IMG/VR virus record: IMGVR_UViG_3300031841_005130
Coordinates: 1 to 26,304 of that record
Reading direction: 5' to 3' (one strand)
Length of the DNA stretch: 26,304 nt
DNA from: a virus
The notes beneath the pieces are model-generated. The model had not been told where the DNA came from. It saw nothing but the letters and a program-made list of their open reading frames with translations, and searched no databases. This document shows, one piece after another, positions 23,543 to 26,304 of the stretch. A program made the translations under genes and the position numbers. Numbering within the stretch: the stretch's first letter is position 1; each line of letters begins with the position of its first letter.

Positions 23543-26304
23543 TGAACCGCCCGATGTTTTCGAAACAAGTCATCAAAAAATCGGACGGAGGGATCGCTTC
23601 TTTCATTCCAAGAGAGACAAAGATTGGCGGCCAACCGCACATGTTGGCTTACATCAACCCGCAAGAAGAACGTTTATTGCAGGATTATCGCGGCAATGCG
23701 CCCACGGTCCCCGGACCGGGTAATGTACCGGCGTATTTTTTTGGTTTTACAAGTTTCTCTGATATGTTTGACGGTGGCGGTGCAGGCGGAAGTGGTGATA
23801 GCTTCTATGCCGGCAGTCATGACGATTATGTTGCAAGCGGCGGAACAGGGGCCGTGGCGCATAATACTGATGACGATGACAACGGCAGTTTTCAAGGACC
23901 GAACATTGACGGCTCTGCCGGATATAACGTGACCACAGGCGACAATATTGGATATGCTACCGACGATAAGGGTTACATTGTAGATGACGATAGTACCGTA
24001 GCGACTACTTCAGGTGGTAATATAATCAGTGATGCCGGTGCTACAATCACCAATCCAGAGACGGGAACGGGTGTGTCTTTAGTCGATGGAGACTATGTAG
24101 CTGTTGGTGATCCATACGTGCCTACATACGGCATTAGTGCCGAGCATGATAAGGTCATGAACGACTTAATAGCTAGTTCCGTCGCAGGCGAGATTGACCC
24201 CAGTCAATTAGTAGGCGTTAAAGTTCCTTTGAGCGGTGCAGAACAAGGCTTGGTTGACATTGGTTGGATTGATAACGGCGATGGTACTATTACAAGTCCC
24301 GGCGGTGGAAACTACGATAGTGATCGCGAGGAGATGTGGGATTGGAACGCAAGTGATGGCTATGAGGTTGCAGGTCCAACCGAGGAACAATCAAATACGC
24401 TAATTCAAACCATATCAAACATCCTGACTCCTAACGACGGACAAGTGTACGTCAATGGCGTACTAGTCGATGAGTATGAGAGTCCAACAGCAACACCTTA
24501 CGATGAAGTCGATCAAAGCACTATAGACGCTTATAAAGAGTACGGTGAAACTCTGACAGAGGCGGGGCTTTTGACCGGTGGCGGTAAACAAACTCCAGAT
24601 GAACCCGCCAATGTAGGAAATACGCCTATCTTACTTTATGATGGAAGTAATGACGATCCGTCTACAAAAGTACAAGTCGTCGATGTCTTAACAAACGTTG
24701 AGAATTATGATGATCTAACGGACGAAGAAAAGACCGAAATAGCAACATCCGGTTTAGTTGAAGGCGGAAACGATGGAACTTTAGTTGGTAGTGACGAATT
24801 AATTGGAACTGCTAGTTTGGCAACAAACGAAGACGGAAGCACTTATATTCCCTACGATGGCTACGATCCTCACGATTTCAGCAACGTAACCTTCCCGGGG
24901 TCCACGGACCCTAATTCCCCTGATTATAACATGTCTAAAGACATGGCGGAAAACGGTAGTTACTACGGGCCTCTTGTAGGTTCAAACGGCGAAATACAAT
25001 ATGATGCAAACGGCAATGTCATCTTAGACCTTTCTCAAAAGAAAACGGACGACGGGTTTTTGGAACAAGGTCTGTCAGACGCAGACGGGAATAAACTCAT
25101 CAACACCCCTCAGATAGTTAATACCGCAGGAGTGGCAAATCTTTTAGACACGGGAGATAGCTCTGGGCTAGTTACACACACCGCCTCTGGTGGAAACGAC
25201 TCTTGTCCCACGCCAGACATGCGTATCCTTTTGGAAGGCGGCACTAAATTTGCCGGTGACATTGAAGTGGGTGATGTAGTCTTAACCGCACACGAAGACA
25301 CAAAGAAGTGGGGTAAGCATCCCGTCACATATAAAGAAATCAAAACGGACAACATTGTAAAAGTCATTTTTGATTCCGCAGAGATTACTTGTTCTCCAAC
25401 GCACAAAGTTTTCTCAAGTAACCGTGACGAATGGGTAAAAGTTTCAGACCTTCAAGAAGGTGACCAAGTCGTCTTGCATGAAACTGAAAATGCATCTACC
25501 TCCAAATGGATTTCAACAGAGCCTCAAGGCACTGGAGATATCGTCGTATTAACGGTGGACGGTGCACATACATATATTTGTGAAGGTATTTTGTCCCACA
25601 ATAAAAAACCCTATGGCGGATATGCAACCCTTGGGGGTGATGTTTTGACCGGACCCGGGACAAATTATGATCCCACGGGCGGAGGTGATCTTATTGCAAC
25701 CGTTCCCGGTACTGATAAAGTGGTAATTGTTAGTCCCGAAGAGTACGACGAAGTTATAACTACCTGTCCAACACCTGATATGCGGATTACTTTAGCTAAC
25801 GGCTTGACGAAGCCCGCGGGCGAGGTGGAAGTTGGAGATGTGGTTTATACGGCTCATGAAGACACAAAAGTCTGGGGCAAACACGAAGTTACGCACAAAT
25901 CTATCAAGCAAGATGACATTGTGCGTGTAGAGTTCGACTCTGTAACAATTACGTGCTCACCGTCTCACAAGCTATTTTCACCCACGCGAAATGATTGGGT
26001 GGCTGTTTCCGACCTTGTTGCAGGGGATGAAGTTCAAACTGACAACGGGGCAAATGCCAAGTGGGTTTCTACGGAATCGCAGGGCACTGGAGATATCGTA
26101 GTACTTACCGTTGCGGACGCACACACTTACGTTTGTGAAGGCATTCTATCACACAATAAAAGTCCGGGTCCCGGCGATGGCGGTGGCGGCGGTGGCGGCG
26201 GTGGCGGTGGCGGCGGCGGCGGCGGCGGCGGCGGCGGCGGTGGTGGCGGTGGCGGTGGTGGCGCAACTACCGAAACTACCGAAACTGAAGAACCCACCGA
26301 TGAA
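23539..26304 (+). CDS. tandem Hint-domain virion-type protein (3' end outside the window), at least 922 aa
   Basis: The frame is open from ATG 23539 to the right edge with no stop. The N-terminus, MMNRPMFSKQVIKKSDGGIA (1-20), then GGQPHMLAYINPQEERLL and a PGPGNVPAYF linker, looks like other phage virion-protein starts in this window. Residues about 75-550 are acidic and rich in Asp, Asn, Gly and Thr (for example NTDDDDNGS) without a recognised fold. Residues 556-688 and 743-873 are two Hint (hedgehog/intein) domains joined by a 54-residue linker; then come SPGPGD, 28 glycines (881-908) and an acidic Thr/Glu tail. AGGAAG at 23527-23532 and the ATGA overlap tie it to the 1313-residue protein gene. 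Self-cleavage or splicing is known for the Hint family; its occurrence here is inferred. Confidence 0.75.
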   Translation, partial: MMNRPMFSKQVIKKSDGGIASFIPRETKIGGQPHMLAYINPQEERLLQDYRGNAPTVPGPGNVPAYFFGFTSFSDMFDGGGAGGSGDSFYAGSHDDYVASGGTGAVAHNTDDDDNGSFQGPNIDGSAGYNVTTGDNIGYATDDKGYIVDDDSTVATTSGGNIISDAGATITNPETGTGVSLVDGDYVAVGDPYVPTYGISAEHDKVMNDLIASSVAGEIDPSQLVGVKVPLSGAEQGLVDIGWIDNGDGTITSPGGGNYDSDREEMWDWNASDGYEVAGPTEEQSNTLIQTISNILTPNDGQVYVNGVLVDEYESPTATPYDEVDQSTIDAYKEYGETLTEAGLLTGGGKQTPDEPANVGNTPILLYDGSNDDPSTKVQVVDVLTNVENYDDLTDEEKTEIATSGLVEGGNDGTLVGSDELIGTASLATNEDGSTYIPYDGYDPHDFSNVTFPGSTDPNSPDYNMSKDMAENGSYYGPLVGSNGEIQYDANGNVILDLSQKKTDDGFLEQGLSDADGNKLINTPQIVNTAGVANLLDTGDSSGLVTHTASGGNDSCPTPDMRILLEGGTKFAGDIEVGDVVLTAHEDTKKWGKHPVTYKEIKTDNIVKVIFDSAEITCSPTHKVFSSNRDEWVKVSDLQEGDQVVLHETENASTSKWISTEPQGTGDIVVLTVDGAHTYICEGILSHNKKPYGGYATLGGDVLTGPGTNYDPTGGGDLIATVPGTDKVVIVSPEEYDEVITTCPTPDMRITLANGLTKPAGEVEVGDVVYTAHEDTKVWGKHEVTHKSIKQDDIVRVEFDSVTITCSPSHKLFSPTRNDWVAVSDLVAGDEVQTDNGANAKWVSTESQGTGDIVVLTVADAHTYVCEGILSHNKSPGPGDGGGGGGGGGGGGGGGGGGGGGGGGGGGGATTETTETEEPTDE
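25204..25602 (+). other. Hint (intein-like) domain 1, 133 residues
   Basis: It starts at Cys556 (CPTPDMRI) and includes the A-block continuation EVGDVVLTAHEDTK. The B-block reads ITCSPTHKVFS with His622, with Ser in place of the usual Thr of the T-x-x-H motif. The F/G blocks read AHTYICEGILSHN, ending in His687-Asn688. The length is that of a mini-intein without homing endonuclease. The residue after Asn is Lys, so the standard C+1 nucleophile is absent. Cys1, block-B His and the terminal His-Asn are all present, so thioester formation and Asn cyclisation are both plausible. Confidence 0.85.
25765..26157 (+). other. Hint (intein-like) domain 2, 131 residues
   Basis: It starts at Cys743 (CPTPDMRI) and has EVGDVVYTAHEDTK, B-block ITCSPSHKLFS with His810, and the closing AHTYVCEGILSHN with His872-Asn873. 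By hand alignment about 90 of some 130 positions are identical to domain 1. The next residue is again Lys. The domain is directly followed by a short SPGPGD spacer and the polyglycine run. Confidence 0.85.
26179..26262 (+). repeat. polyglycine tract, 28 consecutive GGC/GGT codons
   Basis: Eighty-four bases consist only of GGC and GGT codons, in frame with the Hint protein, giving 28 glycines in a row. The tract is almost a pure GGY trinucleotide repeat and so may vary in length by replication slippage, or may be affected by assembly error. Confidence 0.85.

Follow-up and report, generated by a model that had tools for sequence, protein, structure and literature searches.

Class 1 inteins require a cysteine, serine or threonine as the first residue after the domain (+1), whereas bacterial intein-like domains (BILs) lack such a residue. 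In type A BILs, the amine freed by asparagine (Asn) cyclisation has been proposed to attack the thioester formed at the first cysteine (Cys1), thereby ligating the flanks (PMC4031507), and for BIL2, an isopeptide bond with the side-chain amine of a lysine (Lys) has been reported (PMC8616854). Here, we analysed a 26,304-nucleotide stretch of viral DNA (IMG/VR record IMGVR_UViG_3300031841_005130, positions 1 to 26,304; hereafter, the window), in which one open reading frame (ORF) encodes a marine phage protein with two Hint domains, each followed by a lysine. The reading that we tentatively prefer, with a little less than even confidence, is that catalytically complete, A-type-BIL-like Hints process this phage protein without an enzyme and that a lysine amine replaces the +1 nucleophile.

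The two domains occupy residues 556-688 and 743-873 of the protein and are separated by 54 residues in the translation, exactly as a preliminary description made from the sequence had proposed, with the catalytic residues that it had named. Hint1 (133 residues, 25204-25602; all coordinates refer to the plus strand) carries Cys1 at 25204-25206, the block-B histidine (His) at 25402-25404 and a terminal His-Asn at 25597-25602, while Hint2 (131 residues, 25765-26157) has them at 25765-25767, 25966-25968 and 26152-26157, respectively. The lysine that recurs throughout the family directly follows both domains (25603-25605 and 26158-26160), and the linker between them (25603-25764) contains a GGY motif that is the boundary of the empty Hint1 site in relatives. 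Profile searches and structure prediction, which the same description had suggested as checks, agreed with it. The whole protein scored above the curated cut-offs of Pfam PT-HINT (E=1.3e-10, 42.2 bits; cut-off 27.7) and Intein_splicing (E=1.1e-9, 38.7 bits; cut-off 35.8), Hint1 and Hint2 taken singly also scored with Pfam Hint models, and the NCBIfam models intein_Cterm and intein_Nterm gave two matches and one match, respectively, the latter slightly under its cut-off. Using family alignments as input, AlphaFold2 confidently predicted a Hint fold for Hint2 (pLDDT 91, about 97 in the domain; pTM 0.84) and for Hint1 (pLDDT 89, near 97 in the domain core; pTM 0.83). When the Hint2 model was compared with the PDB using Foldseek, the first match was BIL2 from Tetrahymena BUBL1 (E 5e-12, TM 0.83), followed by DnaB inteins, the C. 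thermocellum BIL 2lwy and hedgehog, and the top PDB match of the sequence profile was 2lwy (E 9e-14). Both window domains belong to the Hint superfamily. Moreover, nonsynonymous divergence (dN) among Hint copies was 0.16-0.24 while synonymous divergence (dS) was >1 or saturated, indicating that the domains are under purifying selection; together with the profile matches and the predicted fold, this argues that the two Hints are not there by chance. A special mobility of the Hint module, considered because of the high dS, was rejected: neighbouring genes reach similar dS, since the genomes are mosaic. As both Hints are followed by Lys and not by Cys/Ser/Thr, their sequences identify them as A-type-BIL-like domains rather than canonical inteins. 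Among all collected loci, two complete Hints in one ORF were present only in the window and in the overlapping contig L003. Three ORFs of L199 and L201 showed fragmentary double Hint matches with HN-VK or HN-IK ends and are possibly split or interrupted Hints.

In order to collect relatives, viral contigs were searched with growing alignments and their ORFs were re-scanned with profile hidden Markov models. The 151 related Hints obtained from viral contigs formed 61 clusters at 70% identity, and all 61 presented a lysine at +1 (35 clusters) or +2 (26 clusters). In the latter, the +1 residue was mostly Ile, Val, Met or Leu, with two Thr, one Phe and one Ala. The rest of the C-terminal flank was unconserved, lysine appearing at +3, +4, +5 and +6 in 2, 4, 0 and 1 of the 61 clusters, and no cluster combined Cys/Ser/Thr at +1 with the absence of Lys next to it. 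The shortest case was the L181 protein, which terminates HN-Phe-Lys-stop. The patterns used in the last two scans stopped short of the C-extein, so the invariant lysine is not an effect of selection by the search; they did take in the AHTY and HExT blocks and so overstate how conserved these two are, and 3 of the 21 clusters added in the last scan were partial matches (L199 twice, L201). As a control, Cys/Ser/Thr occupied +1 in 9/9 canonical phage inteins recovered as matches, part of which had their junction chosen by an Asn-then-Cys/Ser/Thr pattern and checked by eye against the block-F/G motif. Bacterial polymorphic toxins among the matches were left out of this control. The simplest reading of the invariant lysine is that it supplies the acceptor amine, either alpha or side-chain. 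Six Hint queries against isolate phage records returned canonical inteins and no close family member except the faecal contig MT835519, while a pattern scan of bacterial genome contigs confirmed no bacterial relative. No paper in the open literature searched described a family of Lys-flanked phage Hints; most subscription papers, among them the original articles on BIL and BUBL, lay outside this search.

The catalytic residues were also conserved. Across 40 clusters (about 30-45% identical), Cys1 was kept in 38, the block-B His in 38 and the terminal His-Asn in all 40. In the Cys1-less clusters, L103 and L106, the protein starts with the Hint, the block-B His is changed to Asp and HN-K is kept; their sister group in the tree consists of N-terminal Hints with Cys1 intact. 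Thus, Cys1 and the block-B His were lost jointly only where the Hint opens the protein. Cys1-less Hints that open short proteins and keep the AHTY block, HN and the next Lys were seen in L103, L106, L111 and L115 (around 5000). Judged by their sequences, these appear to be natural C-side-only Hints; losing just the N-side chemistry would be expected of a domain that still makes use of its C-side reaction.

Homologues of the window protein gave a view of the chain without its insertions. L004 comes from a related phage whose genes are in the same order; it carries a single Hint (9310-9711) at the position of Hint2, and its Hint1 site is empty. In total, six homologous chains were insert-free at this site (L004 plus five more, including a nearly identical pair): they align as TGDDSKM..EG directly joined to GGY, compared with TASGGNDS, Hint1 and KKPYGGY in the window. 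More distant contigs sharing the N-terminal motif of the protein presented no Hint in those read through. From these empty sites and Hint-less homologues it follows that Hints are gained and lost within a chain that is otherwise continuous. In the tree, both window Hints and the L004 Hint formed one clade (100/100) whose internal order was weak (82/61). A recent tandem duplication between the window Hints was unsupported, each being 73-74% identical in amino acids to the L004 Hint and 70% to the other.

Under the mechanism that we propose, Cys1, assisted by the block-B His, would convert its bond with the upstream chain to a thioester. The terminal Asn would then cyclise and sever the bond to the downstream chain, and an amine of the conserved lysine, either the alpha amine freed in this second step or that of the side chain, would accept the upstream chain. 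The flanks would be joined through a peptide or isopeptide bond, with hydrolysis, and thus cleavage, as a side reaction. Four elements of this reading are inferences: activity of the domains, the acceptor role of lysine, rejoining of the flanks and presence of the protein in the virion. This reading is supported by the Hint fold, the kept catalytic residues, the lysine in 61/61 clusters, the BIL precedents and the uninterrupted Hint-less homologues. Several points weigh against it. Activity is predicted from a modelled fold and from sequence, and type A BILs tested to date mostly cleave (PMC4031507). An attack by an alpha amine has no specific need for Lys, and Lys at +2, as in 26/61 clusters, is unable to provide the freed alpha amine. 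In addition, ligation would be of little benefit to Hints with C-exteins of 2-15 residues, and after precise excision of Hint1 about nine residues absent from relatives would stay in the chain.

The chief rival, which we hold to be less likely than not, is that the Hints only cleave at one or both ends and release fragments, a maturation in cis as the preliminary description had proposed. The lysine would then speed Asn cyclisation, position the C-terminal junction or provide a wanted basic new N-terminus. Cleavage is the dominant outcome in the type A BILs tested (PMC4031507), many family Hints sit at the extreme C-terminus, where ligation adds few residues, and the retention of HN-K in Cys1-less members suggests that C-side cleavage alone is useful. 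However, cleavage by itself leaves the retention of Lys at +1/+2 in 61/61 clusters unexplained and is at odds with the uninterrupted chains of Hint-less homologues. Since the single-Hint and Hint-less homologues are uninterrupted chains, ligation fits at least as well as release, and the fragments of 555 and 54 residues plus a tail that had been predicted are one possible outcome among several. What stood of that interpretation was the complete catalytic set of both Hints in a phage structural-type protein, for which a maturation step encoded within the virion protein itself is plausible from the sequence; what it had missed were the absence of the +1 nucleophile, the family-wide lysine and the C-terminal part of the chain. 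An intermolecular transfer, in which another protein or the cell surface provides the amine that attacks the Cys1 thioester and the phage protein becomes covalently attached to it in a hedgehog- or ubiquitin-like way, is unlikely. The C-terminal seat behind a glycine-rich arm resembles hedgehog, and BIL2 has been reported to conjugate the upstream ubiquitin-like domain to other proteins (PMC8616854), but there is no known partner, and any outside acceptor would face competition from the invariant lysine in cis.

Two further explanations are much less probable. Decay of the Hints into inactive domains retained as structural modules would agree with an activity that is so far predicted only, yet it is very hard to reconcile with the low dN against saturated dS and with Cys1 in 38/40, the block-B His in 38/40 and HN in 40/40 clusters at about 30-45% identity. 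The least credible is that the domains are canonical mini-inteins, selfish elements splicing through a +1 Cys/Ser/Thr. The fold, the in-domain catalytic residues and the presence or absence at the Hint1 site would suit mini-inteins, but Lys occupies +1 in both window Hints, and 0/61 clusters have Cys/Ser/Thr without a next Lys, compared with 9/9 canonical phage inteins with Cys/Ser/Thr at +1. Moreover, the flanks are variable glycine-/proline-rich linkers with no conserved enzyme motifs, and precise removal would leave a scar at the Hint1 site. Canonical intein identity was rejected on the absence of the +1 Cys/Ser/Thr.

The host ORF (23539-26304, 922 residues) is open at the window end and runs on in L003, which is 99.5% identical in DNA to the window across an overlap of 1,146 bases. 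Bases 1-65 of L003 have no match to the window, whereas the 1,143 that come next match at 99.5%, which probably marks an assembly breakpoint. This contig supplies 180 residues beyond Hint2, including a C-terminal part of 135 residues with 90% identity to its counterpart in phage L004. The polyglycine run of about 29 Gly (26179-26265), which had been taken for the end of the chain, is therefore an internal linker, followed in L003 by this conserved part. A scan with the host-protein C-terminus recovered only the two contigs already known. At the other end, the protein carries a conserved N-terminal motif (residues 18-71, IGGQPHMLAYINPQEE..., 23590-23751) that recurs in many, mostly Hint-less, proteins of marine phages. 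The motif IGGQPHMLAYINPxEE (window 23539-23838) occurs in structural-type proteins of many marine phages whose chains otherwise differ; gp72 of Roseobacter phage CRP-901, a LysM protein, is among its carriers. The upstream part of the window encodes a virion structural protein (phrog_3287, E 1e-73), one protein whose tape-measure matches are limited to a short segment and another with a weak DNA-ejection-protein match, while the next gene downstream showed an SLT transglycosylase match and endolysin PHROG matches. The neighbouring proteins of 965 and 1313 residues, earlier called ejection proteins, matched no family, so this name was an assumption of the preliminary description.

The C-terminal Hints of the family are usually preceded by a glycine run and followed by 2-15 residues. 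In L152 and L160 the Hint is fused to a lambda gpI-like tail assembly protein (phrog_32, E ~1e-54), in L191, L196 and L124 to central tail fibre J / Phage-tail_3 proteins and in L170 to a glycine-rich tail fibre protein, and in L008 it lies in a 910-residue protein adjoining a tail-tube gene. Homology thus shows a tail association for part of the relatives but does not do so for the window protein. For the latter, a location in the virion is suggested by the gene neighbourhood and by the relatives fused to tail proteins. C-terminal Hints were also found on the L152, L153, L157, L159-L163, L165 and L172 contigs, the two tested (L152 and L160) being the gpI-like ones; judging from their isolate-genome-like record numbers, these contigs are probably inducible prophages. 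In L042, L043, L044 and L046, two neighbouring ORFs (about 513 and 912 residues) each end in a Hint of their own, with Ile-Lys or Val-Lys after it.

A broader proposal, which we consider rather unlikely as a whole, is that a large Hint family, so far known almost exclusively from uncultivated phages and prophages, uses a conserved extein Lys (+1/+2) instead of the +1 Cys/Ser/Thr to join parts of tail or other structural proteins by isopeptide bonds. If true, branched or cross-linked virion proteins would be made without enzyme or ATP. These findings suggest that self-processing of tail tip and fibre proteins goes on in many phages, unseen by gene annotation. The invariant lysine offers a testable rule for cutting versus joining in Hints that lack a +1 nucleophile and links the phage domains to BIL2, the one case of Lys-mediated isopeptide splicing in the literature consulted. 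Natural variants (Cys1-less Hints, a C-extein of Phe-Lys only, paired Hints) are ready-made mutants for studying the mechanism, and Lys-flanked phage Hints could become protein-ligation tools.

Compared with known systems, canonical phage inteins (terminase, helicase, ribonucleotide reductase, polymerase) share the fold and the in-domain catalytic residues but have Cys/Ser/Thr at +1 (9/9) and are seated in enzymes; the tree placed four of them, with long branches, outside the phage Lys family. The window Hints have neither the +1 Cys/Ser/Thr nor the conserved essential-enzyme site of class 1 inteins, and Cys1 is present in both, whereas class 3 inteins lack Cys1 and use the block-F Cys as first nucleophile. 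The pretoxin HINT of polymorphic toxins (PF07591), in which the Hint sets free a C-terminal toxin domain, was the best-scoring Pfam model for the whole window protein, but the neighbours here are phage structural genes, and Pfam gave no toxin-like match in the scanned window part, the 135-residue C-terminal part of L003 lying outside that scan. The hedgehog Hog domain (PDB 1at0) has the same fold, Cys1 thioester chemistry and, in part of the family, C-terminal seat; in contrast, the phage domains end in His-Asn, and C-terminal members, many with C-exteins of 2-15 residues, leave no room for a sterol-recognition region. B-type BILs have a C-terminal motif without His-Asn, whereas His-Asn was present in 40/40 clusters. 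A-type BILs are marked by autocleavage with some splicing and, in sequence, by Cys1 and His-Asn, no +1 nucleophile and a seat in variable regions; these sequence features were found here, the flanks being unconserved and glycine-/proline-rich. The phage Hints share with the Clostridium thermocellum A-type BIL (PDB 2lwy) the Hint fold, Cys1, the C-terminal His-Asn, the lack of +1 Cys/Ser/Thr and a seat in variable linkers, and differ from it in the invariant Lys at +1/+2, the phage structural or tail hosts and, in the window, two Hints per chain. BIL2 of the Tetrahymena BUBL1 polyubiquitin-like locus (PDB 6y75, 6tmm) is the best structural match, and its splicing has been reported to use a Lys side-chain amine, yielding an isopeptide bond (PMC8616854). 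However, BIL2 is eukaryotic and lies between ubiquitin-like domains, its acceptor Lys being described in the downstream ubl5 domain, while the phage Hints have Lys directly at the junction and hosts without recognised ubiquitin-like parts. Altogether, we file the Lys-flanked phage Hints as a new variant among BIL-type Hint domains, not as inteins.
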